Assembly: GCF_936928535.1 (NCBI RefSeq)
Contig: NZ_CAKZHY010000166.1
Location: forward strand, 1 to 64,000
Length of the DNA stretch: 64,000 nucleotides
Reading direction: 5' to 3'
Origin: an uncultured Bradyrhizobium sp.
GTDB lineage: Bacteria > Pseudomonadota > Alphaproteobacteria > Rhizobiales > Xanthobacteraceae
The notes below the pieces were generated by a model that searched no databases, was not told the DNA's origin, and worked only from the letters and a program-made list of their open reading frames with translations. Position 1 is the first letter of the stretch. Each line of letters begins with the position of its first letter. This document shows positions 32,528-55,128 of this stretch, piece by piece. A program made the position numbers and the translations under genes.

Positions 32528-33928
32528 ATGATGTCAGATAGCGCTGCAGCAATTCCACTTCGCGCGCTCCCTTCAGATGACCACGTTTTGGCGCGGGTGC
32601 TCGCGGCGTACGTGGCATCGGCCACAATCTGGCTTTTATTCGCCACGGCCGTGGGACTTCTCGTCAGCTTTAAATTCGCCTACCCTGATTTCGCGACCAC
32701 GCCGGCGCTGTCGTTCGGTCGGCTGCGCGCGATACACACCAGCGGAACATTTTATGCCTGGGCGAGTCAGGCACTGATTGGGCTTGCGCTGTTCGTCGCG
32801 GCTCGCAGCTCTGGCACAAGACTCTACAGCGAGCGCCTCGCATGGATCAGTCTTGCGCTCCTCAATCTTGCCGCGGTACTGGGCACTGTCACGCTCGATT
32901 TGGGGTTCACCTACGGCCAGGAGTATCGCGAATGGCTATGGTGGATTCGCGTAATCCTTGGACTCGGCTTGATCACCGCGGCCTGGAATTTGATCGCCAC
33001 CGTCGAGCGCCGCGATGGCGAGCATATCTATATTTCTAACTGGTATACTATCGGGGGTACGCTGTGGACGATCGTTATGGTCCTGGTGTCAATGTTGCCC
33101 TGGTATCAGTACGGCCTGGGTCAAGTCGCGGTCCAGGGATTCTTCATGCATAACGCTGTCGGACTATGGTTCACGCCTCTATCGCTCGGTGTGTCATACT
33201 ATGCGCTGCCGAAGCTCCTAAACCGGCCGATCTATTCATATTCTCTCGGTGTCTTCGCATTCTGGACCAATCTCATCTTTTATCCGATCATCGGCGCTCA
33301 TCATTTTGAATTCAGTCCACTACCATGGTGGCTGCAGACTACGGCCATTGTCTTCAGTGTGGCCATGCTCGTTCCAGTGTTGAGCGGCTCGGCAAACTTC
33401 CTTCTCACCTTCCGGGGGACTCACGAATGGGTATATCGTTCGCCCGCGGTTTTCATCCTCGTTGGCGTCTACGGCTATTTACTGGGATCCGCGCAAGGCA
33501 CATTCGAGGCGTTTCGCTCGCTGCAGCAGCTTTGGCATCTGACGAATTACACGGTAGGGCACTCGCACCTCACGATGTATGGCTTCGTCACCTTCGCGAT
33601 CTGGGGCGGCATCTATGCACTGTTGCCGCGCGCAACCGGAAAGTGTCCCTATAATCTAGCGATGGGCATTCATTTTTGGCTGTCTGCCGTCGGTGTAGTC
33701 ATCTATGTTGCGGCGCTGTCGGCCGCCGGCACCATTCAGGGGCTCGACTGGTTCCGAGGTCTCACCTTCATCCAGTCGGTCGAAGATGCCGCGCCATACT
33801 GGATGTGGCGCTCCGTCGGCGGCTCCTTGATGTTTGCCGGCCATCTAGTCTTCGCTTTCAACGTCTGGACGATGACCTACGGTAGGTCCCGCGCCGAGAT
33901 TGCCACAGCCAAGACAGTGCCAGCATGA
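32528..33928 (+). CDS. ccoN: cbb3-type cytochrome c oxidase subunit I-like (CcoN)
   Basis: Heme-copper oxidase motifs: RAIHTSGTFYAW, HNAVGLWFTPLSLGVSYYALPK, NRPIYSYSLGVFAFW, IIGAHHFEFSPLPWWLQT, HLTNYTVGHSHLTMYGFV. Confidence 0.88.
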   Translation: MMSDSAAAIPLRALPSDDHVLARVLAAYVASATIWLLFATAVGLLVSFKFAYPDFATTPALSFGRLRAIHTSGTFYAWASQALIGLALFVAARSSGTRLYSERLAWISLALLNLAAVLGTVTLDLGFTYGQEYREWLWWIRVILGLGLITAAWNLIATVERRDGEHIYISNWYTIGGTLWTIVMVLVSMLPWYQYGLGQVAVQGFFMHNAVGLWFTPLSLGVSYYALPKLLNRPIYSYSLGVFAFWTNLIFYPIIGAHHFEFSPLPWWLQTTAIVFSVAMLVPVLSGSANFLLTFRGTHEWVYRSPAVFILVGVYGYLLGSAQGTFEAFRSLQQLWHLTNYTVGHSHLTMYGFVTFAIWGGIYALLPRATGKCPYNLAMGIHFWLSAVGVVIYVAALSAAGTIQGLDWFRGLTFIQSVEDAAPYWMWRSVGGSLMFAGHLVFAFNVWTMTYGRSRAEIATAKTVPA

Positions 33929-35253
33929 ACAAGACATTTGTTATTTCTGGCGGATCAACGCTGATCTACACTGGATTAGCGGTTCTTATGGGCGTGCTGC
34001 CGGGGATCTGGCTGTCGAAGGTGCCGCCAACGCCTGGCCTTAAGCCACTAAGCCCGATTGAGGCGCGGGGGCGAGATGTTTATGTCTCAGAGGGCTGCTT
34101 CTATTGCCATACCCAGCAAGTACGCCCGCTCTCCGGAGATAAGCCGTTTGGCCGCCCGTCTGCGCCCGGCGATTACGCCTACCAGACTACGGAATTGCTA
34201 GGTTCGGAGCGCACTGGTCCAGACTTGAGCAATATCGGCGCGCGGCAATCGAGTAACATATGGCAGTACATCCATCTCTATCAACCACGTGCAGTTGTAC
34301 CACAATCAATCATGCCGGCCTTCCCCTGGCTGTTTAGGACCGTGCGCAAACTGCCACCAGGAGAGAAAGCGGTGCCATTGCCGCCCCAGTTCGCGCCAGG
34401 CGATATCGTCATCCCCAACGACGACGGCAAGGCGCTAGTTGCCTATCTGCTATCACTGAAACAGCCCCCACTCGCTCCGGCACAGACCCCCGCCGCGACT
34501 AAGAGCCCTTCGACCGGGTCCCTAAGGTTTGACGCCACCAAGGGCGCTGCATTGTTTGCCGACAACTGTGCATCCTGCCACGGCGCGGAAGGAATGGGTG
34601 TGCCGGGAACGTTTCCGCCGCTTGCTGGAGATGCGGTGGTGAACGACGCCAATCCCACTGCACACATTGGCACCGTGCTGCACGGACTTAGCGGGCGCGT
34701 AATCAACGGTCAGAGCTATGAAGCGCAAATGCCCGGGTTTTCCGATCAACTGTCTGATCAGCAGATTGCTGACATCATCGATCACGAGCGATCCTCGTGG
34801 GGCAACCGCGGTGCCCTAATCAGTGCGGCTGATGTCGTCGCGGCCCGTGCCAATGAACCATTGCAGAAGCAAGCAGCGACCCCGAAAGAGGCGTCCCCAG
34901 TAACGGCCCCAGCATCGACGTTCGATGCTGCGGAAGGATCGAAGCTCTTCGCCGACAACTGCGGCGTCTGTCACGGTGCAGAGGGAAAAGGCGTTCCTGG
35001 CACATTTCCGCCACTTGCGGGCGATCCGGTCGTTAATGCCACTGATCCTGCCGAACACATCGCCACCATGCTGCGCGGCCTCAGTGGCAAGGTAATCGAC
35101 GGCCAGAAGTACGAAGTGGAGATGCCGCCGTTCGCTGACCGACTCTCTAATCAGCAGATCGCCGATATCATTAATCACGAGCGCACGTCCTGGGGTAACC
35201 ACGGGGCGTTGGTCACGCCTGCCGAGATCACGAAGCTCCGCAGCAAAAAATAG
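33925..35253 (+). CDS. ccoO: CcoO-like cytochrome c fused to two tandem cytochrome c domains (three CxxCH)
   Basis: CcoO-like GRDVYVSEGCFYCHTQQVRPLSGDK...GSERTGPDLSNIGAR, then CASCHGAEGMGVPGTFPPLAGD... and CGVCHGAEGKGVPGTFPPLAGD...; 4-bp overlap with ccoN. Confidence 0.88.
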   Translation: MNKTFVISGGSTLIYTGLAVLMGVLPGIWLSKVPPTPGLKPLSPIEARGRDVYVSEGCFYCHTQQVRPLSGDKPFGRPSAPGDYAYQTTELLGSERTGPDLSNIGARQSSNIWQYIHLYQPRAVVPQSIMPAFPWLFRTVRKLPPGEKAVPLPPQFAPGDIVIPNDDGKALVAYLLSLKQPPLAPAQTPAATKSPSTGSLRFDATKGAALFADNCASCHGAEGMGVPGTFPPLAGDAVVNDANPTAHIGTVLHGLSGRVINGQSYEAQMPGFSDQLSDQQIADIIDHERSSWGNRGALISAADVVAARANEPLQKQAATPKEASPVTAPASTFDAAEGSKLFADNCGVCHGAEGKGVPGTFPPLAGDPVVNATDPAEHIATMLRGLSGKVIDGQKYEVEMPPFADRLSNQQIADIINHERTSWGNHGALVTPAEITKLRSKK

Positions 35254-35256
35254 GAG

Positions 35257-35505
35257 GTGACGATGATCGATACGATTAACGCCTGGATTCTCTCAGCGCT
35301 TGGCTACCTCTGCACCTCGTCTGCGACAGCTGGTGGTGCTGGCGGTCCTAACCTTTCCGGACCACTGCTCGGCAACGTGCTAGTGGCGGGGGGAGCCGGG
35401 CTCGTGACAGTCAGTTGCATCGTGGCAGCGGTGTGGATGCTTATCGCCCCGGGCGAACGAGACCCCGATCATCCAAAATATCGCGTCCTGCATGTCGACC
35501 GTTAA
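35257..35505 (+). CDS. small membrane protein of the oxidase cluster
   Basis: 82 aa with C-terminal TM helix; starts 4 bp after ccoO. Confidence 0.65.
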   Translation: MTMIDTINAWILSALGYLCTSSATAGGAGGPNLSGPLLGNVLVAGGAGLVTVSCIVAAVWMLIAPGERDPDHPKYRVLHVDR

Positions 35506-35965
35506 AGGAATGCAGCACGTGCCCGATCCGCGCATCCGAATCTATCTCGACGAAGCGACCGATCCAGTGACCGATCAGAGGCCGCCGGCGCAGATAGCGC
35601 TCGACACAAAGAGCCTCGCCGACGGCGAACACGCCCTGCGCATCGAAGCCCAGGACGCCACCGGCCAGGTCGGCATCCGACGCCTCCAATTCCAAGTTCG
35701 CAACGGCCCTGGGATCACAGTTAGCGGGCTTGGTGATGGGGCCCTCGTTCACGGTACGCTCCGCTTCATAGTCAACGCGTTTGGAGCCGAAGAGCCATTT
35801 GAGCCGCACCGGGCGGAATCGCCCTCGCCGATCCCTGTTTGGGTGTGGGTGCTGAGCCTCCTCATCGTTGCTTGGACCGCCTGGTATATTGCAACGCTTT
35901 GGGACGTTCCGACGGACTACGCCAAAACCCCAACCTACTCCACGTCAATGAATCCCTTCAAATAG
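35492..35965 (+). CDS. C-terminally membrane-anchored oxidase-associated protein
   Basis: Soluble beta-rich region (LDTKSLADGEHALRIEAQDATGQVGIRRLQFQVRNG) then TM (IPVWVWVLSLLIVAWTAWYIATLW); overlaps the upstream gene. The start may be the ATG at 35510. Confidence 0.65.
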   Translation: MSTVKGMQHVPDPRIRIYLDEATDPVTDQRPPAQIALDTKSLADGEHALRIEAQDATGQVGIRRLQFQVRNGPGITVSGLGDGALVHGTLRFIVNAFGAEEPFEPHRAESPSPIPVWVWVLSLLIVAWTAWYIATLWDVPTDYAKTPTYSTSMNPFK

Positions 35966-36014
35966 CGAGCTCGAGGCAACTGGCGATGAGGGCCTCAGCC
36001 GGGATCAAATTCAC

Positions 36015-36302
36015 ATGCCACGCATCATAGTCAACAAACACGGCTTCCCCGGCGTCAGGAAGCGCTCGGACCATGCTAGGCGGCGAAAGCCCTACTATGC
36101 CCGCATCAGCACTGGTTGCGAAACCTTCATTTATAGCAAGAATTTCGCGACAGCCGAAGAAGCCGCTTCGGAATATCAACGAATGAAAGCTGAAAAATCA
36201 TCGCCATATCGTCCAGGGACCACCGGTCAGCATCCTGCGACGAGCTACCCAACAAGTAAGAGGTTTGATCATGGAGATTCGCCTCGGCACCAGGCGAAGT
36301 GA
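36015..36302 (+). CDS. small AP2-like DNA-binding-domain protein (candidate)
   Basis: GFPGVRKRSDHARRRKPYYARISTGCETFIYSKNFATAEEAASEYQRMKAE resembles the AP2 fold signature (GVR...Y.A.I......F.TAEEAA.AY); the 3' end overlaps hemC. Confidence 0.45.
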   Translation: MPRIIVNKHGFPGVRKRSDHARRRKPYYARISTGCETFIYSKNFATAEEAASEYQRMKAEKSSPYRPGTTGQHPATSYPTSKRFDHGDSPRHQAK

Positions 36303-37209
36303 CCTGGCCCGCTGGCAAGCCAGTCACGTCGCCAATCTTATTCGCGGCGTCGAGCCGGCCGCTGAGGTAAGGATTGTTTTCACAAGTTCGGTTGGCGATA
36401 GAGATCGAAGGTCGTCTTTTCATCAGTTTGGGGGCGTCGGAGCATTCACGAAGGAGGGCGAAGACACGCTTATGCGAAAGGAAGTTGACCTGGTCGTTCA
36501 TTCTCTCAAGGATCTTCCGACTAGATTGCGGCAAGGCTTGGTATTAGCGGCTGTTCCCAAGAGAGAGGATGCTCGTGACGCCATTTGTGGCGTTACACTA
36601 GATCAGCTACGACCGGGGCTACGCGTCGGCACCGGATCAATTCGCCGCAAAGCGCAACTTCTCGCTCTATGCAGTGGTCTCGATGTTCGACCCATCCGCG
36701 GGAACGTTTCTCCAAGGCTTCGTAAGGCAAAGATCCGGGACGGAATAGACGCTACTCTATTGGCCGCGGCAGGACTGTCCCGGCTAGGGTTGCTACATGA
36801 GGCCTCACAGGTTCTAGACGCGAATGTCTTTCCGTATGCAGCCGGCCAAGGCGCTCTCGCGGCCGAAGCTCGCGAAGAAGATACGGAACTCATAGCATTG
36901 CTTCAAAAGATAGAAGATCGGAAATCGCGCACTGAAGTAGATGCAGAGCGCGCCCTGATGAGAAGTCTCGATGCGGGTTGCAGCCTACCCATCGGCGTTT
37001 CCGCCACGTGGGTCGCCGGGACACTAACGCTTCGAGGACAGGTGACTCATCCAGATGGTAAATCGAAGATTGCTGATGAATGCGTTGGTCCGGCCGACCA
37101 GGCCGAGGCAATCGGTAGACGTCTCGGGCACAAGCTTCTTCAGCAAGGTGCAGGCGAGATACTGGAGGCCGTGCATCGTATGATGGAAGTACAGGGAGTG
37201 CTTCCATAG
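36271..37209 (+). CDS. hemC: porphobilinogen deaminase (hydroxymethylbilane synthase)
   Basis: MEIRLGTRRSDLARWQASHV...GVGAFTKEGEDTLMRKEVDLVVHSLKDLPT...RALMRSLDAGCSLPIGV. Confidence 0.95.
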   Translation: MEIRLGTRRSDLARWQASHVANLIRGVEPAAEVRIVFTSSVGDRDRRSSFHQFGGVGAFTKEGEDTLMRKEVDLVVHSLKDLPTRLRQGLVLAAVPKREDARDAICGVTLDQLRPGLRVGTGSIRRKAQLLALCSGLDVRPIRGNVSPRLRKAKIRDGIDATLLAAAGLSRLGLLHEASQVLDANVFPYAAGQGALAAEAREEDTELIALLQKIEDRKSRTEVDAERALMRSLDAGCSLPIGVSATWVAGTLTLRGQVTHPDGKSKIADECVGPADQAEAIGRRLGHKLLQQGAGEILEAVHRMMEVQGVLP

Positions 37210-38288
37210 TGGTTTACGAGCCAAGAAAGTTGCTTCTGCGTGCGCTTGCCGGCGAGCGTACGGAACGACCGCCAATCTGGCTTATGAGACAAGCTGGCCG
37301 GTACCTGCCGGAGTATCTTGTAACGCGGGCCGCAGCCGGCGGAATGCTGGAGCTGTGCAACTCGCCGGACCACGCGGTAGAAGTCACGCTTCAGCCGATC
37401 CGGCGATTTGGATTCGATGCGGCCATTCTATTCGCGGACCTTCCGCAGATTGCCGCAGCGCTTGGCCAAGTGCTCGAATACAAGGACGGCGATGGGCCGG
37501 TTCTGTCGCCCCCGATCCGTACGGCTGCGGATGTGGCGCGCCTTAAACGTACTTGGTTGCACAAGAAATTGGCGCCGATCTATGAGACGGTGCGACGACT
37601 CACCGTCGCCCTCCCTCCAAACGTGGCCTTGATTGGCTACGCGGGGGCGCCCTGGACAGTGGCTACTTACATGGTTGAGGGTCGCGGCGGCGGTGCCACC
37701 GACCATGCTACTATCAAGCGATGGGCGTTGAGCGACCCAGAGGAGTTTCAGCCGCTGATAGACCTGTTGACCGAAACCATCACTCAGTTCCTAGGACGAC
37801 AGATCGAGTCGGGCGCAGAAGCCATCCAGCTATTTGAGAGCTCGGCGGGTATCCTCCCTGAACCTTTCTTCCAGCGCTGGTGCGTGCAGCCCGTAGCCGC
37901 GATCGTCAGCGCCCTTCGCGCCAAATATCCCAATACCCCGATCATAGCCTTTCCGCGCGGCGCCGGTCTGCTTTACGTTGGCTACGCCGAAGCGACCGGG
38001 GTCAATTGTGTAGGCCTGGACAGCACCGTCCCGCTCGCTTGGGCTGCCGACAGAATACAGCGCGCCCTTGGGTGCTGCGTGCAGGGCGGCCTGGACAACC
38101 AACTACTGGTGGCGGGAGGCGCAGCGATGTACGCAGAAACCGACCGCATCCTGGCGGCCTTGGGCCGGGGACCGTTCATTTTCAATCTCGGTCATGGCAT
38201 TCTGAAGACCACACGCCCCGAGCATGTCCAATCCTTGGTGCGTCACATAAAGTCGCAAAAGCTCGATGGCAGAGGTCGAGCTACCTGA
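37209..38288 (+). CDS. hemE: uroporphyrinogen decarboxylase (GTG start, overlaps hemC stop)
   Basis: RPPIWLMRQAGRYLPEYL...IGYAGAPWTVATYMVEGRGG...FPRGAG...QGGLDNQLLVAGG...FNLGHGILKTTRPEHV. Confidence 0.96.
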   Translation: MVYEPRKLLLRALAGERTERPPIWLMRQAGRYLPEYLVTRAAAGGMLELCNSPDHAVEVTLQPIRRFGFDAAILFADLPQIAAALGQVLEYKDGDGPVLSPPIRTAADVARLKRTWLHKKLAPIYETVRRLTVALPPNVALIGYAGAPWTVATYMVEGRGGGATDHATIKRWALSDPEEFQPLIDLLTETITQFLGRQIESGAEAIQLFESSAGILPEPFFQRWCVQPVAAIVSALRAKYPNTPIIAFPRGAGLLYVGYAEATGVNCVGLDSTVPLAWAADRIQRALGCCVQGGLDNQLLVAGGAAMYAETDRILAALGRGPFIFNLGHGILKTTRPEHVQSLVRHIKSQKLDGRGRAT

Positions 38289-39122: not shown

Positions 39123-40988
39123 TTATGATTTCATGCCGAGGCTCCGCGACGCGTCTCCGATAAGCTCCCGGTGCGAAGTTCCCCAGAGCAGGACAGTCCC
39201 AAGGGCGGCAGAGAGAATCGAGGCGGCGAACACAGCTATTTTTGCGGCCGAGAAGTCAGTGGCGTTTGGAAATGCCTGACCGGCGATGAAGAGAGACATC
39301 GTGAAGCCAATCCCAGCGAGGGCTCCTGCCCCGCCCAACTGCCGCCACGAGTACTCGTCCGGCTTGACGGCTAGGCCTGTGCGTACAGCCGCGGCGGCCG
39401 CGAGGAAGACGCCGAGCGGCTTTCCTAAAGCGAGACCAGCGACGATCGCGGCCATGAGCCTGCCATGGCCGACGAAGACGCCTGGGTTGATCATCATTCC
39501 CGCATTCGCCAATGCGAAGATTGGGAGGATAGCGTAGCTCGATCGCGCGCCGGCATGTCGCAGCAGCCGATCGGCGGGCGACTCAAGTCTCTCGTAGATT
39601 GCCTCGAGCGCGTGCAGAGCCGAAGTAGAGGGGCCGTTCCTAAGAACTTCACCCTCGCGCCGAGCCTCGGACGCGATGATGGTGCTCGCCTGCGTCATCA
39701 GGGCTTCTAAGTTGGCGGGCGGTCGCGTCGGAATAAACAACGCAAGTACCACCCCGGCCAACGTAGGGTGCAGGCCGCCAGCGTATACGGACGCCCAAAG
39801 CGCAACGCCCAACAGGATGTAGGGCGACAGAAAGTAGACTCCAGATCGGCTCAGAAGCACCAGCGCAACTACAACTGTGGCGGCCGCAGCAAGGTAAGCC
39901 AGATGGATCTCACCAGAGTAAAACAGAGCGACGACGACGATCGCGCCGATGTCGTCAACGATGGCCGCCGCAGTGAGGAAGATACGCAGCTCCACAGGGA
40001 CGCGGGAGCCCATCACCGCGATCAAAGCAACCGCGAACGCGGTGTCGGTCGCCATCGGGACACCCCATCCGCGCGACCACGGCCCCGCTGGGATGATCAG
40101 CGCATACAGAAGCGCCGGTCCGACCATGCCGCCGAGCGCGGCCACGATCGGAAGCGCGGCCGAACGACGGCTTGCGAGATGGCCCACCGTCATCTCGCGC
40201 TTGACTTCCAATCCAACGACCAGGAAGAACACTGTTAACAGCCCGTCATTGACCCAATCGAAGATAGGCTTCCGAAAGGCTATGTTGCCCAAGCTCACGC
40301 CGAACTCGCGGCGCCAGAGCGCCTCGAAGTGCGGCCCGATGGGCGAGTTCGTCAAGATGATCGCCGCCACGGCCGCGAGGACGAGCAGAATGCCGGCTGA
40401 CGGCCCCCAGCTCGCAAAGTCCAAGGCAGCCGTACGAACGCGGTGACCGAGTGTGCCAAGCATCGCATCGACGAAAGAACTCTCGTCCCACGGCCCGTCG
40501 TAGCGCCGACGGTTGATGTAGAAACTTGGCGTGAATCTCACTCCGCTCGCGCGCGCGCTTGCGATGTCCGACTCCACTCTCGACCTCGCCCGCCGTACGG
40601 CTTCGCTCTCGCCAAGCGAGAGGTCCGCGTTCACACCGAGGTCTGCGGCCACCGCGAAGAGATCGTCTTCCGTGAGCTGCGCCGATCTCGTCATAAGCTT
40701 GATGTGCGCGGACCAGAACGCTTCGGGCGTCCGAGCGAGCTCAACGATCTGTGCAGCCCAGAATGAAAGACTGTTGTTCGCGAGCGGCTTGTGACGGAAC
40801 GCATAGCAGATGCGGTCGCCGAGTTGATCGCGCGCCTGCGCGATGCGATCGTTGGCAGCCCTGCAGTGCGGACACGCGTAGCTGCCGTACTCGACCAGCG
40901 AGATCTCGGCGTCGGGAGGGCCGAGCACATGTTCCGTATCGTGATCGACCGGTCGATCAAGTCGGCCTGACGGAAATATGAGCTTCAT
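39123..40988 (-). CDS. nhaA: DsbA-like thioredoxin domain fused to NhaA Na+/H+ antiporter
   Basis: N-terminal VEYGSYACPHCRAANDRIAQA (CPHC) and DsbA fold; C-terminal NhaA (DGLLTVFFLVVGLEVKREMTVG; ATDTAFAVALI; AAAIVDDIGAIVVVALFYS). Confidence 0.93.
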   Translation of the reverse strand: MKLIFPSGRLDRPVDHDTEHVLGPPDAEISLVEYGSYACPHCRAANDRIAQARDQLGDRICYAFRHKPLANNSLSFWAAQIVELARTPEAFWSAHIKLMTRSAQLTEDDLFAVAADLGVNADLSLGESEAVRRARSRVESDIASARASGVRFTPSFYINRRRYDGPWDESSFVDAMLGTLGHRVRTAALDFASWGPSAGILLVLAAVAAIILTNSPIGPHFEALWRREFGVSLGNIAFRKPIFDWVNDGLLTVFFLVVGLEVKREMTVGHLASRRSAALPIVAALGGMVGPALLYALIIPAGPWSRGWGVPMATDTAFAVALIAVMGSRVPVELRIFLTAAAIVDDIGAIVVVALFYSGEIHLAYLAAAATVVVALVLLSRSGVYFLSPYILLGVALWASVYAGGLHPTLAGVVLALFIPTRPPANLEALMTQASTIIASEARREGEVLRNGPSTSALHALEAIYERLESPADRLLRHAGARSSYAILPIFALANAGMMINPGVFVGHGRLMAAIVAGLALGKPLGVFLAAAAAVRTGLAVKPDEYSWRQLGGAGALAGIGFTMSLFIAGQAFPNATDFSAAKIAVFAASILSAALGTVLLWGTSHRELIGDASRSLGMKS

Positions 40989-42693: not shown

Positions 42694-43173
42694 ATGAACG
42701 CTCGACTTCGCATTTGCGCGTCTGCGCTCGCACTTGTGATTCCGATCGCAATTGCCGCGTCGTCCAAATCATCAGCCGCCCCAATTGTTAGTACGTCCAT
42801 CAAGGCGGCCATACCACCGTTGACGACAGATGTCCGCTCAAGGGTGCGGCCTGGTCATCCTCTTGAACCGGCAGCATACGGTCGTTCGGCCTACGATGGC
42901 TCTTGGGACCTCGTCTTCGTGACGCAACGAGGAACCTGCGATTCCAGCTACAGTTTTACTGTCGATGTAACCAACGGCATTGTTACGCATCCAAATCTCG
43001 TGAAGTTTCGGGGTTACGTCGCAAGGTCGGGCGCAGTTCGCGCCTCCGTGGAGGTCCACGACAAATATGCCGCGGGTACTGGCAAACTGTTCGCGACCAC
43101 CGGTCGAGGGACCTGGAGCGGCCACTCAGGATCAGCGCGCTGCTCAGGCTACTGGTCTGCACAACGTAATTGA
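42694..43173 (+). CDS. secreted hypothetical protein
   Basis: MNARLRICASALALVIPIAIAASSKSSAAP signal peptide; YDGSWDLVFVTQRGTCDSSYSFTVDVTNGIV...GKLFATTGRGTWSGHSGSARCSGYWSAQRN. Confidence 0.7.
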   Translation: MNARLRICASALALVIPIAIAASSKSSAAPIVSTSIKAAIPPLTTDVRSRVRPGHPLEPAAYGRSAYDGSWDLVFVTQRGTCDSSYSFTVDVTNGIVTHPNLVKFRGYVARSGAVRASVEVHDKYAAGTGKLFATTGRGTWSGHSGSARCSGYWSAQRN

Positions 43174-43271: not shown

Positions 43272-44135
43272 ATGAGATCTCCCAAACTAGCTAGCGTTGC
43301 CGTCCTGCTTAGCTTGCTCTCAGCTGCTTCCGACGGGGCAATGCGGCCGCAGACGCCTCGTTCCATGAGCGAGTCCATCCAGCCGGACGACGTCGCGCCC
43401 CTTGATGCTGGTCGACTGGCGTTGGTGATTGGCAATTCAGCCTATCCCGATGCGGACTTTCCTCTTCCTCAAATAACACGCGATACGGAAGCCTTGACAA
43501 ATGCTCTTCGCGAGGACGGCTTTTTCGTCGATGCACTTGAGAATACGACGCGTCTCGGAATGACCCGTGCAATCGATCATCTAAAAGAACGACTGCGTTC
43601 GAACTCAACTGTGTTGGTTTATTTCGGAGGTTACGGCATCCAATCTGACGGACAGAATTACCTAATCCCCATCGATGCGACGATTTGGAGTGAAGAGGAC
43701 GTTCGTCGACAAGGTGTAAGCATCGACCACCTCCTTTCGCAACTACGCAATTCCGGAGCACGCGTTAGGCTCGCAGTGATTGAGGCCTCACGCCGCAATC
43801 CGTACGAGCGACGCTTTAGGACTTATTCACATGGGTTGGCCCCCATTCTACCGGCCGAGAACGCACTTGTCCTGAGCTCAGCCGGGCCTGGTGAAGTAGT
43901 CGAAGATCCTGAAGGACTGCATAGTCAGCTGATTAGCGCTCTGCTTGCGCAGATGGAACCCTCAAGGGAGATCAAGGAAGTCTTCAATAATACTCGAAAC
44001 GCGGTGGTGGCTGCTACTCGGGGCCAACAGATTCCAATTGTGTTATCTACGCTGACGGAGAGTTTCCATCTTTCGCCGGCGCAGATCGACGCTCCCGCCT
44101 ACTCCGTCGGCTCTGCGGTTAGTGGTCATCGGTGA
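43272..44135 (+). CDS. caspase-like (peptidase C14 fold) protein with substituted catalytic dyad
   Basis: RLALVIGNSAYPDADFPLPQITRDTEALTNALREDGFFV...VLVYFGGYGIQSDGQNYLIPIDA...VRLAVIEASRRNPYERRFR; p20-like core with Y at the usual H and S at the usual C. Confidence 0.85.
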   Translation: MRSPKLASVAVLLSLLSAASDGAMRPQTPRSMSESIQPDDVAPLDAGRLALVIGNSAYPDADFPLPQITRDTEALTNALREDGFFVDALENTTRLGMTRAIDHLKERLRSNSTVLVYFGGYGIQSDGQNYLIPIDATIWSEEDVRRQGVSIDHLLSQLRNSGARVRLAVIEASRRNPYERRFRTYSHGLAPILPAENALVLSSAGPGEVVEDPEGLHSQLISALLAQMEPSREIKEVFNNTRNAVVAATRGQQIPIVLSTLTESFHLSPAQIDAPAYSVGSAVSGHR

Positions 44136-44159: not shown

Positions 44160-44426
44160 ATGGACGAGGAGAACCTTATCGCTTCCCTCGAGACGCAGCT
44201 TGATTTGATCAAGCGCGTTGGTCTCGCACTTTACACCCAAGCTCCGGACCGGGGAGTACTAAGCTTTGGCATCATACCGCAAGTGCTCGTACACGCTCTC
44301 GCCGAGAGACGTCGTCGAGAGCGCCGTTCCAAACTCAGCTATATTCCAGCAATGTGGGACCGCTCTCCTGAAGCAGGAGCCTCAGCTCGGCAGACTGCCT
44401 CCCCAGCGCCAATCCTACAGGCATAG
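44160..44426 (+). CDS. small hypothetical protein
   Basis: 88-aa ORF 24 bp downstream of the caspase-like gene, same strand: MDEENLIASLETQLDLIKRVGLALYTQAPDRG... Confidence 0.35.
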   Translation: MDEENLIASLETQLDLIKRVGLALYTQAPDRGVLSFGIIPQVLVHALAERRRRERRSKLSYIPAMWDRSPEAGASARQTASPAPILQA

Positions 44427-47150: not shown

Positions 47151-47723
47151 TCACTTTTTGAGTCCAGGATAGCCTTGAACATAGATCCAGTCGGTCGCTT
47201 TCGCAGGGATGTGGCAACCTAGACAATCTGAGCGGAAGTTCGTTGAGGTCGTTTTCATCGGATCACCCGCATCAAACCAGGACCAGCCCCAACCATTGCC
47301 CCACAACTTGTTACCGGGGTGGCTGTCCTTGCCGTCCTTCACCATCATGAACCATCCTTTTAGGCTTTGCTGATGGCTAACGGTCCCAGTCGTCATTTCC
47401 GAAGTGGCCGCGGCGTACACCTCTTTCACCAAGATCGAACCCTCCGGAAATTTGCCAGTCGCCCGATAGGCCGCCGCAGTGCCGGGCGACGCGTAGACCA
47501 CGTGCATCTCCTTAGCGCCTTTGTCACCTGCAACAGACCAGCTCCCAAGGAATTCGTAAGCCGTTCGGTAGTCCTTCGGGATATGCATGTTGCCTGCCCC
47601 GTCGACGAGTTGCTCCTGCGCAGGCGCGGCCTGGCTCGGTCCGAGCTGCGATACGAGGCACCCGACGGTCACGGCAATGAATGAAGCGGACACAACGGCC
47701 GCACTTCCGAGAAATTTCATCAC
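47151..47723 (-). CDS. cytochrome P460-family protein
   Basis: FPEGSILVKEVYAAAT...GWFMMVKDGKDSHPGNKLWGNGWGWSWFD...SDCLGCHIPAKATDWIYVQGYPGLKK; signal peptide. Confidence 0.8.
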   Translation of the reverse strand: MMKFLGSAAVVSASFIAVTVGCLVSQLGPSQAAPAQEQLVDGAGNMHIPKDYRTAYEFLGSWSVAGDKGAKEMHVVYASPGTAAAYRATGKFPEGSILVKEVYAAATSEMTTGTVSHQQSLKGWFMMVKDGKDSHPGNKLWGNGWGWSWFDAGDPMKTTSTNFRSDCLGCHIPAKATDWIYVQGYPGLKK

Positions 47724-47731
47724 GGTTCTCC

Positions 47732-48406
47732 CTACTTCTTGATAGACGGATTCTCGTTGGGCGGCATTTTCTTGGAGTGATTCTGGCCGGGCGGTAGCGG
47801 CACTTCGTCAAGCAACGCGTAGAACTGCGTCCATACGTCGTCCCGCTTCGCGTTTGCGATGTGACAATAGCCGCATTCCTCGACAGGCCGGACTTTCGCA
47901 GAGGCGGCCTTTGGTTCAAAATGGTTGAAGTTGAAATAGCCCCAGCCGTGACTTGCCTTATATCTTTCGGAGTCCTTGACAGTCACATCCGCACCGTTGA
48001 AGGGACCCGGGAAGAACCCTTTACCCGATGGCTCAGTTCTCGAACCGTCCGGATTGGTGGCGGGCTGCAAGAGCTGCAGTTCCTTCACAAAAATCGTTCC
48101 TTCAGGAAAGACTCCCGTTTTTTTGTAGATCTCGTAAGAGCCAGGCTCGATATATACGTTGTGAAATTCCGGGAAATTAGCCTGGGGCGGGTTTAAGAAA
48201 TTGGGTGTTGTTGGGGATCCAACGTAAACCCATTCGTGAAAATTCTTCGGCAGAATGAGGTCGCCGTCTTTCGTGTATTCAGGAAGATAGCGGCCGGTCG
48301 CGTGCCAATCGTCGGGTGGTGGTAGTTGCGGTTGCTGCGCGAAAACTGCGGTTGCTAGAGCGCCAACGCCAAGGACGGTGGAAAGTGCCAATACGGTGCG
48401 TCTCAT
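47732..48406 (-). CDS. cytochrome P460-family protein
   Basis: PEGTIFVKELQLLQPAT...GWGYFNFN...ECGYCHIANAKRDDVWTQFYALLDE; signal peptide. Confidence 0.8.
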   Translation of the reverse strand: MRRTVLALSTVLGVGALATAVFAQQPQLPPPDDWHATGRYLPEYTKDGDLILPKNFHEWVYVGSPTTPNFLNPPQANFPEFHNVYIEPGSYEIYKKTGVFPEGTIFVKELQLLQPATNPDGSRTEPSGKGFFPGPFNGADVTVKDSERYKASHGWGYFNFNHFEPKAASAKVRPVEECGYCHIANAKRDDVWTQFYALLDEVPLPPGQNHSKKMPPNENPSIKK

Positions 48407-49334
48407 AGTCTCTCTCCTTTGACAGCTCGATATTGCCGATGAGGCAATGACTGCATCTTTGCGAGGGTGGTCTCATCAACAACTCGCAAATCAAACTAGG
48501 CATGGTTGCCACAGGGCGAAAGCAACAAAGGGGCATGAAATCAATGCCCGATGGAAATGACGCGCTTTCGAACTATCGAAGGTTGATCGTCGACTCCTCT
48601 GTTTCCTAGCAACGCGACGCACCGAGTTGCCGACTAATCGCCATGTCCCGGCCTCGCTGATGAGCTCGACACTTTGCTCATCTGCAGATTTGACCATTGA
48701 GCGTCCAATCTTGTCGGTCCACATATCGCACGCAATTCCGCGGAAGGGGCCAGTGCAGTCTGCCGGCCAATAGCAAGCCCTGCTCGGTCAACCTAATTTG
48801 CATCTCGTCCATTCGCTCGCGATTTGCCCCCCTTCCGAGCGATTGTCGTGTCAGCGCAGCTTACGAGCTAATGTTCATCGTGTTTGATGAAGTCACTTCT
48901 CTTTCAGAAGGCATAGTCTGTCGAACGTCGACACCTGCACCGCGCCAGCGTTGAAGAGGTCTCCTACGTCACACTTTGGGTGCATGACACTACGATCGAG
49001 AGGCGAGCCTCGGCTCGGCTTTGTTCACTTCGACCCCTGCCGGTCCGGATCACCCAGCTCTTCACTGGTGAACAGCCATCGAGCATCTTGGACTATGATC
49101 TGGGCGGCAACTTCGGGTCCGGTGAGCGACGAACTATCTCGCCGATCTGACTGATCCCGTCGTACAGTTGACTTAGCTTCCGGAACTAAGCCGCGACCGG
49201 CGCAATTTTGCATCAGAGCGGCGTACGCACGATGCAAAAAAGGACGGCGGCTTGGGTTAGGTCTGAGCTGCCTCAGGTGGCGTCGCTCGATCATAACCGG
49301 AGGGTTTTAAAACCATAACTGAGACGAGTGCGAA

Positions 49335-50771
49335 GTGCGCTGCGTGATAGGCTATGGTCGACCTATGCTCGAGCGACGGATAGGGAAAGTTGACATGGAC
49401 GATCTGGACGTATCGGCTGAGCCTCAAGCGAAGCATTCAGCGCACGGAAGCTCCGATAATGGACATTCGTGTACGGACACACACTCGTGCTCGGACATAT
49501 CGTGCATGAAACGCGCGTTGACGACGCCTCCAGCGAGCTTCGTCTGGGGTTCCGTCAATTGTGCGAACGAAATATACGAGCGCTATTTCAACGACTCTCT
49601 TGAGCGCCTGCGTGGGGAACAACGCTATCGCGTCTTCGCTAACATCGAACGCGTCTGCGGCCGCTTCCCAACCGCCAAATGGCGCAGTCCTGACGGGGCC
49701 GTTACTGATATCACGGTTTGGTGCTCGAATGATTACCTGGGCATGGGACAACATCCGGAGGTCGTGAGCGCGCTGACGGCCGCGGCGCACCGCTGCGGTG
49801 CAGGAGCAGGTGGAACTCGCAACATCGCAGGGAATAGTTCGCCCTTAGTTGATTTAGAGGAAGAACTTGCTGATCTGCATGGCAAGGAGGCAAGTCTCGT
49901 CTTCACCTCCGGCTATGTATCGAATCAGGCCAGCATATCCACAATCGGTAAGCTGATCCCAGGGTGCGTAATCTTTTCTGATGCATTCAACCACAATTCG
50001 ATTATCGAAGGCATTCGTCAATCAGGTTGCGAAAAGCGGATTTTCCGCCACAACGACCTTGGTCACCTTGAGGGCTTGCTGCGCGAGGCAGGAAGCGGCC
50101 CCAAGCTCGTCGTGTTCGAATCCGTCTACTCAATGGACGGCGATGTGGCGCCGATTGGCGCAATCTGCGACCTTGCCGAGCGGTATGGGGCAATGACCTA
50201 CCTTGATGAGGTTCACGCCGTCGGCCTCTATGGCGCTCGGGGCGGCGGAATCAGCGAGCGCGAAGGCGTGATGCACCGCTTGACGGTGATCGAGGGTACT
50301 CTCGCTAAGGGATTTGGCTGCATTGGCGGCTATATCTCGGCATCGCGATCTATTTGCGATGCGGTGCGCAGCTTCGCGCCCGGATTCATCTTCACGACCG
50401 CCCTCCCTCCACCGATTGCCGCCGCAGCGCGTGCGTCTGTTCGCCACTTGAAACACTCGTCTGCCGAGCGCGAAGCACAACAACGACAGGCAGCCGCAAC
50501 GAAAGAGGCACTCAAAGCCGCCGGGCTTCCGGTTCTACCGACCGAAACCCACATCGTGCCTGTGATTGTCGGCGATGCGGAGTTGTGCAAGGCGGCAGCC
50601 GATCGCCTTCTACAGCGCCACGCCATCTATATCCAGCCGATCAACTATCCGACGGTCCCGCGCGGGACGGAGCGGCTGCGGATCACGCCGTCGCCTTATC
50701 ACGCAGATACCCACATAGCGGAACTCGCAGCTGCGCTGGCTGAGACCTGGGGCGCCCTTTCTCTTTCCTGA
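49335..50771 (+). CDS. hemA: 5-aminolevulinate synthase (start uncertain; core begins ~49580)
   Basis: [17 protein letters not shown]...[16 protein letters not shown]...[43 protein letters not shown]...[22 protein letters not shown]...[15 protein letters not shown]. Confidence 0.96.
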
Positions 50772-51153
50772 GAGACGTAATCGGTAGCGCTCCTTTCGCG
50801 ACCGCTTACCCGGCTTCATCACCGGGCCGTCGGCTTACCGGCGGCGCAGAGTACACTCTGAGGGCGTCGGGAGTCCCGGTGGTGCAGCCGAGGCAGCAAG
50901 TTGGGGCAATGGAACATCCCTTTCAAGTTTGTATGGGCGCTCCCGTGGCACATCTTGCCGTCGGCGTTCACAATCGGGCTCGCATCCGTTTAATGGGCGG
51001 CCCCGAAGAGCGAACCTCCTCGGCCTCTGGACCGTTCTTCCCCCGAAACCGCTCGAACACGTTTGTCCAAAATCGCCAGTCATTTCGATAAGCCTCCACA
51101 CGACCGTTCGTTGAAAACGAACTCAGAGAAGCATCGGATAACGAGAACTGAAA

Positions 51154-51780
51154 ATGGATAAAATACAGCGCTCCCATCTGCTGATCGAAGATCTGTCTGT
51201 GGCGCGCGGCGAGCGCATCCTGCTCGGCGGGATATCTTTGCAACTAAGCTCGGGCCAAATCGCCGAAGTGACGGGTCCCAACGGAGTGGGCAAATCTACA
51301 CTCTTGCGCGCGATCGCCGGTTTTTTTCCACTGAGATCCGGCCGCATGTCGTGGGTGGAATCCGAAGCTGCGGATTCTGTGCCCCTGGCAGAACGCCTCC
51401 ACTACGTGGGCCATCTCGACGGGCTGAAATCGGCGTTGACCGCCCGCGAAAACCTCGAGGTCGGCCTGGGATTTTTGGGGCGGGACCGGCGAACCGCCTT
51501 ACAGGCGCTGGACTGCATGGAATTGGCTCATGTTCTCGATCTGCCAGTCGGTTATCTCTCCGCGGGGCAGCGTCGCCGCGTCGCATTGGCCCGGCTCTTG
51601 ATCGTCGATCGACCTCTATGGCTGCTCGACGAACCGCTGACTGCACTCGACCGGCACGCGCGCGCCTTACTGAAGGCTATCGTCGCGGGCCATCTCGGAA
51701 GCGGAGGATTGACGCTGACCGCGACCCACGAACCTCTTGGTCTGGCAGGGACAATCCAAGTCAGGCTTGGAACCAGGTAA
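51154..51780 (+). CDS. ccmA: heme ABC exporter ATP-binding protein CcmA
   Basis: GPNGVGKSTLLRAIAGFFPLRSGRM; LSAGQRRRVALARLLIVDRPLWLLDEPLTALD; upstream of ccmB. Confidence 0.94.
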   Translation: MDKIQRSHLLIEDLSVARGERILLGGISLQLSSGQIAEVTGPNGVGKSTLLRAIAGFFPLRSGRMSWVESEAADSVPLAERLHYVGHLDGLKSALTARENLEVGLGFLGRDRRTALQALDCMELAHVLDLPVGYLSAGQRRRVALARLLIVDRPLWLLDEPLTALDRHARALLKAIVAGHLGSGGLTLTATHEPLGLAGTIQVRLGTR

Positions 51781-51910
51781 TGGCCATTTCGCTGAAGGGC
51801 GGTCGCAGCCCAGGTAGCTGTCTGTCTCGAGGTCGGGCAAGAAGAGATCACGCTGCTCTTCCGATTTCAGTGGAGCGGTGTCAACCCAATAGCGATACCG
51901 GACGGGAATC

Positions 51911-52573
51911 ATGACCCGTATTCTCCTCGTCGTTTTTGTTCGCGACCTCATGCTGGCCCGCCGCATCGGGGGCGGCGGGATTCTCGGTCTGGTCTTTTTC
52001 CTCAGTCTCGTAACGGTCGTACCATTCGCAATCGGGCCTGACCTGCGTTTGCTGTCGCGGATCGGCCCGGCAATTCTATGGATAGCGGCACTTCTCGCGA
52101 GTCTATTGGGCCTCGACCGTCTGTTTCAGGCGGATCAAGAGGACGGTTCGCTCGACCAAATGTTGCTGTCGCCGGCGCCCTTAGAACTCATTGTTCTTGT
52201 GAAGTGCATGGCTCACTGGTTTATGACAGGGCTGCCGCTCGTTATGCTCTCGCCCCTCTTTGGCCTGATGTTTAATTTGGATGGCCCGGCCCTCCGATCG
52301 GTAGCAGCAACGTTGTTGGTTGGTACGCCGACGTTCACCTTTCTAGGGGCGATCGGGGCGGCCCTTACTGTCACCCTGCGGCGCGGCGGTCTGTTGCTAT
52401 CGATCCTCGTCGTGCCACTAGCCGTACCGGTGCTGATCTTCGGTGTCTCCGCGGCGCAAAGTGCCACAATTCCCTTTTTGACACCGTTCCTGGTCCTCTG
52501 CGCGCTCGGGCTCGCGTCCATCGCGCTCGCTCCGATAGCTGCGGCCTCAGCTCTTCGTAGCGCAGGAGAATAA
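51911..52573 (+). CDS. ccmB: heme exporter protein CcmB
   Basis: Six-TM protein: FFLSLVTVVPFAIGPDLRLLSRIGPAILWIAALLASLLGLDRLFQADQEDGSLDQMLLSPAPLELIVLVKC. Confidence 0.94.
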   Translation: MTRILLVVFVRDLMLARRIGGGGILGLVFFLSLVTVVPFAIGPDLRLLSRIGPAILWIAALLASLLGLDRLFQADQEDGSLDQMLLSPAPLELIVLVKCMAHWFMTGLPLVMLSPLFGLMFNLDGPALRSVAATLLVGTPTFTFLGAIGAALTVTLRRGGLLLSILVVPLAVPVLIFGVSAAQSATIPFLTPFLVLCALGLASIALAPIAAASALRSAGE

Positions 52574-52657
52574 TGAGGCATGCAACGATTGAGTTTTCTT
52601 TCGGGGCACTGTTGTGGAACGATTTCGGCATTGCCCGAACTTGACCTCAGGAGGAGC

Positions 52658-53134
52658 CTAAAGCGGGCTATCGGAGTCAAACAAAACGGCAAGCTGATCC
52701 CGCTCGGCTTGGCTCAATGGTGCCGCTGGCGTGGACTGCTGGCGGCGCAATCCGAACAGGAGAGCGATGGCGCCCGCTCCGAGCACCAAAGCCGGCATTC
52801 CCCAAAGGAGAGCGGTTTCCAAGTCGATTGGCGGTTTCAGCAGGATAAAGTTTCCGTAGCGCTTTACCAGAAAAGCGCGGACCTGCTCATCACTCTCTCC
52901 TAGCTTAAGGCGCTCGCGCACTAGCAGGCGAAGGTCCCGCGCGAGTTCTGCCTTGGAATCGTCGATAGACTCATTTTGACAGACCAGACAACGCAGTCCG
53001 GCGGAAATAGCGCGCGCGCGTACCTCGAGTTTCGGGTTGGTCAGGACTTCATCCGGCTGAACCGCCCTCGCCAAGCTAGGAGCGACGCTTGCGAGTACGA
53101 TCGAAAGCAGAAGAATGCGACGAAGCCGCGTCAT
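52658..53134 (-). CDS. ccmH: cytochrome c-type biogenesis protein CcmH
   Basis: LRCLVCQNESIDDSKAELARDLRLLVRERLKLGESDEQVRAFLVKRYGNFILLKPP. Confidence 0.95.
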   Translation of the reverse strand: MTRLRRILLLSIVLASVAPSLARAVQPDEVLTNPKLEVRARAISAGLRCLVCQNESIDDSKAELARDLRLLVRERLKLGESDEQVRAFLVKRYGNFILLKPPIDLETALLWGMPALVLGAGAIALLFGLRRQQSTPAAPLSQAERDQLAVLFDSDSPL

Positions 53135-55128
53135 TCGGCGGGCTCCGGCGCTGCAGGGCCGTCGGCGACGCGAAGGCGAGCCGCGCGGCGCGCGAAGCCA
53201 ATTCGGAGGCGTCTGTCGGACAAGGATACCATCCCTCCGAACGCCATAATGACCGCACCGATCCAGATGCTCGTCACGAGCGGCTTCCAGAACAGGCGCG
53301 CATCAACCGAACCATCCGCGTGGCGGTCCCCAAGCGAAATGTAGATCTGCCCAAAACTCAGCGTTACGATGCCTGCCTCGGTGACGGTTGTCTGTCGTGT
53401 GGGAAAGCTGCGCTTGGCTGGCTCGACGGCTGTCACGTATGCACCGCCCTTGCTGATAATCGTATGGCCGACGAGCTCTGTGTAGTTCGGGCCCTGCCGC
53501 GATTGAAATTTCTCTATGGTCGCTTGATAAGGGCCAAGATCGATCCTCTGACCTAACTTGACGGTCGCGATCCGCTCCACACCCCAACCCGTCGCCGCCA
53601 AGCCCATGAGTGTAAGGCCCAGGCCCGCGTGAGCGATCGCCCCACCCCACGCGGAGCGCGGCAGCCCGATCGCGCGGGCTAGCATAACCCGGCCGCCTTG
53701 CCCTCGTGCCCAGATACGCGACGCCACATCGGTGAACGAACCGACGATGAGGTAGACGGCGAGACCGAGACCGGCTGCGGAGAAGACGGAGCCGCCCCGG
53801 ATGACGGCAACAAGCACAATTGAGACTACAAGACCACCCAAGGCTGCGAACGTTACCCGTTGCGCTGCGCCGAGCAGGTCGCCGCGTTTCCAGGCGATCG
53901 ACTGACCGAGCGGCATCAGCAGAACGATAGGCGCTACGAGCGGGCCGAGCGCTAAATTAAAAAACGGCGCGCCGACCGAGATCTTGTCTCCGGTCAGCGC
54001 CTCAAGCGCGAGCGGATAGAGCGTGCCGGTCAGAACCGTGACGCAGCAGGTAGTCAGCAGCAGGTTGTTGACTGCCAGCGCACTCTCGCGTGAAACGGGT
54101 GCGAACACGCTACGCTCGCTCAGGGGGGGCGCACGCCACGCGTAGAGCGCGAGTGGTCCGCCGATGAATACGGTCAGTATGACCAAGATGAAGACCCCGC
54201 GAGCTGGGTCACTGGCGAACGAATGGACGGAGGTAAGTACTCCGGAGCGCACGAGGAACGTACCCAGCAGCGACAGCGAGAACGTAAGTATCGCCAGGAA
54301 CAGTGTCCAAATCTTGAGGGCTTCACGCTTTTCCATGACAGCAGCCGAATGGAGGAGCGCGGTGCCCGCAAGCCAGGGCATTAGTGACGCGTTTTCGACC
54401 GGATCCCAGAACCAGAATCCGCCCCAGCCTAGGGTGTAATAGGCCCAGTACGACCCCATGGCGATGCCAAGCGTCAAAAATATCCAGGCAATCAGTATCC
54501 AGGGCCGCACGTAGCGGGCCCAAGCAGCGTCTAGCCGGCCGCTGATCAGCGCGGCTACCGCGAAGGAGAACACGATCGAAGAACCGACATAGCCGACGTA
54601 AAGCAGCGGCGGGTGTATGGCGAGGCCCGGGTCTTGAAGCAGCGGATTAAGGTCCTGGCCCTCAAACGGCGCCGGAAATCGTCGCAAGAAGGGATCGGAG
54701 GTGAACAGAATGAAACTGAGGAAGGCAAGCGAGATCCAGCCTTGCACGGCCAGCGTATTCGCGCGTAGCTCGTTTGCCATGGCGTGTTCGAAAATCGCTA
54801 CAGCCGCTCCAAAAGCCGCGAGAATCAGAACCCAAAGCAGCATGGATCCTTCGTGATTGCCCCAGACGCCCGCGATTTTGTATATAAGTGGTTTGGTGGT
54901 GAGTGAGTTCTCGGCGACTGTCACGAGACTGAAGTCAGACGCCACATGGGCGTAAGTCAGTGCTGCGAAGGCATAACCTAGGAGCAGGAACTGGGTGATT
55001 GCGGCAGGGACCGCGATTGAAGTAAGTGCCGTATCTCCAGTACGGGTTCCCCAGAGTGGCAGAATTGATTGAAGCAGCGCGACGGCGAGAGCCAAAGCGA
55101 GCGCGTAATGTCCGGTTTCGATGATCAT
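53131..55128 (-). CDS. ccmF: heme lyase CcmF
   Basis: WGNHEGSMLLWVLILA; WAYYTLGWGGFWFWDPVENASLMPWL; 665 aa, multi-TM. Confidence 0.97.
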   Translation of the reverse strand: MIIETGHYALALALAVALLQSILPLWGTRTGDTALTSIAVPAAITQFLLLGYAFAALTYAHVASDFSLVTVAENSLTTKPLIYKIAGVWGNHEGSMLLWVLILAAFGAAVAIFEHAMANELRANTLAVQGWISLAFLSFILFTSDPFLRRFPAPFEGQDLNPLLQDPGLAIHPPLLYVGYVGSSIVFSFAVAALISGRLDAAWARYVRPWILIAWIFLTLGIAMGSYWAYYTLGWGGFWFWDPVENASLMPWLAGTALLHSAAVMEKREALKIWTLFLAILTFSLSLLGTFLVRSGVLTSVHSFASDPARGVFILVILTVFIGGPLALYAWRAPPLSERSVFAPVSRESALAVNNLLLTTCCVTVLTGTLYPLALEALTGDKISVGAPFFNLALGPLVAPIVLLMPLGQSIAWKRGDLLGAAQRVTFAALGGLVVSIVLVAVIRGGSVFSAAGLGLAVYLIVGSFTDVASRIWARGQGGRVMLARAIGLPRSAWGGAIAHAGLGLTLMGLAATGWGVERIATVKLGQRIDLGPYQATIEKFQSRQGPNYTELVGHTIISKGGAYVTAVEPAKRSFPTRQTTVTEAGIVTLSFGQIYISLGDRHADGSVDARLFWKPLVTSIWIGAVIMAFGGMVSLSDRRLRIGFARRAARLRVADGPAAPEPAE

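Follow-up and report, generated by a model that had tools for sequence, protein, structure and literature searches.

In the 64,000-nucleotide stretch of Bradyrhizobium DNA analysed here (the window), a gene for a caspase-fold protein with a replaced catalytic dyad (the window gene) lies downstream of a gene for a small secreted protein (the linked gene). Dyads are written below by their residues at the catalytic His and Cys positions, HC for His-Cys and YS for Tyr-Ser. The features of the locus are as follows:

42694-43173, + strand: linked gene, encoding a secreted 159-aa protein with Cys 82 and Cys 150 in its mature part and no Pfam match
43272-44135, + strand: window gene, encoding a YS pseudo-orthocaspase of 287 aa with a Peptidase_C14 p20 domain (residues 48-265) and no cysteine anywhere in the protein
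43272-43340, + strand: N-terminal hydrophobic signal or anchor, residues 1-23, MRSPKLASVAVLLSLLSAASDGA (from hydropathy; cleavage site putative)
43482-43484, + strand: Asp71, aligned with the Asp of 19/19 HC homologues and taken as the equivalent of TbMC2 Asp95
43632-43634, + strand: Tyr121, codon TAC, at the catalytic His position (from alignment and orthologues)
43782-43784, + strand: Glu171, two residues before the dead nucleophile, at the position of TbMC2 Asp211
43785-43844, + strand: Arg-rich loop after the dead nucleophile, residues 172-191, ASRRNPYERRFRTYSHGLAP (from alignment)
43788-43790, + strand: Ser173, codon TCA, at the catalytic Cys position
44160-44426, + strand: small ORF starting with a bacterioferritin C-terminal remnant (residues 2-27), outside the two-gene module

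Peptidase_C14 (PF00656) is the sole Pfam match of the window protein (E 1.6e-30, profile positions 2-232 of 233). This nearly full-length match places it in the Peptidase_C14/caspase p20 superfamily, as does a Foldseek comparison in which the best solved matches, obtained with a model of pLDDT 54, are MALT1 paracaspase structures (3v4o, E 4.2e-10). A sequence search agrees, MALT1 paracaspase again being the best solved-structure match. MALT1 itself differs in being an active, eukaryotic His-Cys protease with death and Ig domains. The AlphaFold model is modest (pLDDT 54, pTM 0.56, eight usable sequences); its strands and helices alternate in a caspase-like manner, and its active-site loop is poorly modelled. 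The translated ORF shows ...LVYFGGYGIQS... and ...LAVIEASRRNPYE... around the dyad positions. In an alignment with HC homologues these positions are occupied by His in 19/19 and by Cys in 19/19 sequences, which identifies Tyr121 and Ser173 as the dyad positions and bears out the sequence-only reading, according to which Tyr and Ser stand here in place of His and Cys. The window protein lacks the His-Cys dyad of an active orthocaspase (family C14 peptidase). It has the p20 without p10 architecture of pseudo-orthocaspases, with C14 as the only Pfam domain and a C-terminus that extends 22 residues past it.

A close match to the window protein is present in 17 of the 272 genus genomes, its own included. 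In a set of 16 close orthologues, made up of the window protein and 15 proteins 67-90% identical to it, the substituted dyad is conserved, with YS in 14, FS in two and HC in none; the more distant relative L061, at about 52% identity, also carries FS. Ser173 is invariant in the close orthologues, and three synonymous TCN codons are in use. Neither strain-specific decay of the dyad, with close relatives retaining His and Cys, nor a sequencing error, the two outcomes that the sequence-only reading had named against itself, survives this comparison: all 16 close orthologues have Tyr or Phe with Ser, and sequencing error is excluded because independent genomes repeat the same residues. Over 120 orthologue pairs the median dN/dS is 0.27, at a dS of about 0.5. 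This purifying selection, together with the replacement of the dyad in every close orthologue, supports the functional pseudo-protease that had been proposed from the letters. Outside these 17 genomes, the window gene is present as a frameshifted copy in B. elkanii WSM2783 (L069; L119 seems to be the same record) and in G286 (L122). Because it is accessory and frameshifted in these two genomes, the gene is dispensable, yet it is under selection where present. A plasmid search for its homologues at E 1e-40 found none.

The 7.5-Mb genome of origin, in which the window lies on contig C166, encodes 17 C14 domains, 13 of them HC, two YS (the window protein and L009), one FS (L010, with TPR repeats) and one YA (L007). 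The second, core YS paralogue is found in 264/272 genus genomes. Other genera of the family have it too, at 58-70% identity, and in many of their genomes it is accompanied by a paralogue of about 520 aa, often 7-30 kb apart. These long paralogues are FS in all cases sampled but one, which is HA (L160). In a tree from which the two dyad columns had been left out, the Bradyrhizobium YS and FS proteins form one clade (support 100/100) apart from the HC proteins. The window clade (100/99, and 100/99 again with L061 added) and the core YS paralogue join in one group (97/99), and the FS-TPR protein is an outer branch. The YA protein is placed among the HC proteins (99/91) and represents an independent dyad loss. 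The tree and the distribution are best explained if this lineage lost its dyad long ago and duplication followed; the window gene most likely arose within the YS/FS clade as a duplicate of the near-universal YS paralogue.

The core YS gene (L100:6181-7029) and the FS-TPR gene (L101:14326-15855) are two dead caspases whose linkage is conserved, at a distance of about 7-30 kb in many Bradyrhizobium and several sister-genus genomes. The HA protein L160 (G296:C8), a C14 protein, has an RRNPFERR loop and is a possible intermediate in dyad loss.

The S1 pocket acids of TbMC2 are Asp95 and Asp211 (PMC6426788). Judged by alignment position, Asp71 of the window protein would be the equivalent of Asp95, and it is Asp in 15/16 close orthologues. 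Position 171 is Glu in 15 of these and Asp in one; every HC homologue has Asp there, as does the core YS paralogue. The two pocket acids characteristic of pseudo-orthocaspases are retained, the charge being kept at 171 though the residue differs. Behind the dead nucleophile, an ASRRNPxERRFRxxSxGL loop is nearly invariant across the YS/FS proteins sampled in Bradyrhizobium and sister genera, while the HC homologues have CRN or CRD at this place and then variable sequence. (A degenerate DNA pattern for the ASRRNP motif, applied family-wide, matched every genome by chance.) The text of PMC6426788 as searched makes no mention of this loop. What is new is that the YS/FS proteins are one clade with an Arg-rich loop and retained pocket acids. 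Tyr121 is exchanged for Phe among orthologues and within the core paralogue, hence its hydroxyl is not needed; the loop and this exchange argue that the site serves as a surface for binding and has not been remade into a serine hydrolase.

The N-terminus of the window protein, MRSPKLASVAVLL, combines a positively charged start with a hydrophobic stretch and has no RR. A positive start followed by a hydrophobic stretch is typical of a Sec signal or anchor, and we infer that the protein is probably exported. The cyanobacterial YS class differs in having a Tat-like N-terminus (PMC6426788); the window protein has neither this extension nor its twin arginine.

The window gene is linked to the upstream gene, which ends 98 bp before its start codon on the same strand. 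A homologue of the linked gene lies directly upstream in 16/16 close orthologues and at both frameshifted copies, the remaining flanking genes differing in part between orthologue loci; it is missing beside the divergent relative L061. The linked protein has a hydrophobic N-terminus by hydropathy, no family match was found for it, and its AlphaFold model (pLDDT 39), unreliable in any finer detail, is mostly beta. The arrangement suggests that the two genes may constitute an exported two-gene module, and from order and spacing they form a putative operon; promoter and terminator scans gave nothing above chance, and no promoter was found. The linked protein may also be a functional partner of the window protein. 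The term 'linked' is preferred here to 'obligate partner', as stand-alone relatives exist elsewhere in the genus and the gene is disrupted at some loci. The N-terminal 56 residues of the linked protein (42694-42861) appear to derive from a different secreted-protein family, a shorter 119-aa form is present at most orthologous loci, and at L058 a similar N-terminus is encoded by a separate ORF upstream, which suggests that the 159-aa gene is a fusion by deletion.

The window protein adds a member to a class that is already published. A 2012 paper described the class, with Ser and Tyr as the most frequent substitutes for Cys and His (PMC3501461); Klemencic et al. 2019 (PMC6426788) treated it in detail and give YS, YA and FS as the commonest dyads in Rhizobiales pseudo-orthocaspases. 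With the alphaproteobacterial YS pseudo-orthocaspases described there, the window protein has in common the p20 without p10, the Tyr-Ser dyad, the occurrence in Rhizobiales and the pocket acids. It differs in being short, at 287 aa without a long C-terminus, and in its clade, which is accessory and has the gene for a small secreted protein linked to it. The FS-TPR protein L010 of the same genome shares its clade, the Arg-rich loop and an exported-looking N-terminus; it differs in its length of about 510 aa, its C-terminal TPR repeats and its location elsewhere (C17). In the literature found, genetic results on pseudo-orthocaspases exist only for SyOC of Synechocystis PCC 6803, whose deletion raises H2O2 tolerance, suggesting a pro-death role (PMC7889975), and no role is known for any alphaproteobacterial member. 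SyOC is cyanobacterial; the window protein is likewise a pseudo-orthocaspase, known here from its sequence.

Overall, the best explanation, and one in which we have good confidence, is that the window gene encodes an exported pseudo-orthocaspase, periplasmic or membrane-anchored, that binds rather than cuts. The caspase p20 fold has kept its peptide-binding pocket acids and lost the His-Cys dyad, and from this loss the protein is predicted to perform no proteolysis. Once in the periplasm or anchored in the membrane, it would act by binding or as a scaffold in place of cutting, and its ligand would be bound via the acidic pocket and/or the Arg-rich loop. The gene is carried as an accessory two-gene unit with the small secreted protein of disulphide type. 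It is tempting to go further and suggest a previously undescribed exported two-component module with the two-cysteine neighbour, in which the Arg-rich loop, having taken the place of the active-site loop, would present the working surface for an acidic ligand. We advance this joint reading only tentatively, and the candidate ligand within it, a protein, an envelope polymer or a phosphate compound, is equally speculative.

The window protein could instead regulate the 13 HC orthocaspases of its genome, as a dominant-negative dimer partner or a substrate decoy in the way of cFLIP or TbMC4. The presence of these HC domains in the same genome speaks for such a role; its acidic pocket could retain an affinity for basic substrates, and precedents are cited in PMC6426788. 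The same paper reports, however, that a pseudo-variant can be the sole orthocaspase of unicellular cyanobacteria, and no HC gene adjoins the window gene in the loci examined. We consider this role rather unlikely.

Less probable still is the reading of the gene as a paralogue in decay, without function and sited on a genomic island. Bradyrhizobium GC is about 63-64%, and islands are often lower in GC. The window, with 54-63% GC in 2-kb steps, is lower than expected for the genus. The patchy distribution (17/272), this low-GC neighbourhood, the two frameshifted copies and a pseudogene remnant nearby would all fit decay. The remnant lies in the downstream ORF that had been listed as small and unknown; the ORF is present, but it is not wholly unknown, as it begins with 26 residues of a bacterioferritin C-terminus, 73% identical to one Bfr protein of the same genome, followed by unrelated sequence, and it is a gene remnant. 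Decay of the window gene itself is opposed by the open reading frame in 17 genomes, by an omega of about 0.27 at this level of synonymous divergence and by the invariant loop.

The sequence-only reading had also offered a Ser-based variant. In such a hydrolase Ser173 would be the nucleophile and cutting would continue with a different base. This proposal is weakened to the point of being very improbable. Every YS and FS member examined does have Ser173, and the pocket acids are retained. The exchange of Tyr121 with Phe in orthologues and in the core paralogue implies, however, that no hydroxyl or base is needed there: the FS paralogue has no hydroxyl, position 121 offers no base and no conserved His, and the related RRNPFERR protein L160, with its HA dyad, has no nucleophile. 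A role in photosynthesis, as proposed for pseudo-orthocaspases of the group in PMC6426788 from a correlation across orders (the alphaproteobacterial carriers belong to phototrophic orders), is rejected within Bradyrhizobium and seems to us hardly credible, since among the 272 genus genomes, 27 of which have photosynthetic reaction-centre genes, the core YS gene occurs in 26/27 that have them and in 238/245 that lack them (Fisher p 0.57), and all 17 carriers of the window gene lack them. This absence of a photosynthesis association is a further difference from the published alphaproteobacterial YS class.

The analysis yields three handles on this probable binding protein: the conserved loop, the linked gene as a candidate partner, and the within-genus evidence against the photosynthesis hypothesis. 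Follow-up is most worthwhile for the Arg-rich loop and the linked gene. Bradyrhizobium, whose members include legume symbionts, almost always has a dead caspase, and this offers a tractable case of a protease fold that may have been reused as a binder.

A defence role as an anti-phage caspase was considered separately and rejected, as the PADLOC caspase model matches the window protein only partially and weakly (E 3e-5, 21.4 bits, 126/453 profile positions) and there are no defence genes among its Pfam-scanned neighbours. Elsewhere in the window, a respiratory/haem gene cluster occupies 32528-38288 and 47151-55128 on the low-GC stretch. It includes COX1- and FixO-type oxidase subunits, hemC, two cytochrome P460 genes, ccmB and ccmF, together with an ORF that reads as uroporphyrinogen decarboxylase and an ALA-synthase-like aminotransferase at 49335-50771. 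An NhaA-family Na+/H+ antiporter with a fused N-terminal DsbA/thioredoxin-like domain is encoded at 39123-40988, and a 1970-aa hybrid signalling protein with Ser/Thr kinase, AAA ATPase, GAF, PAS and histidine kinase domains at 1148-7060.
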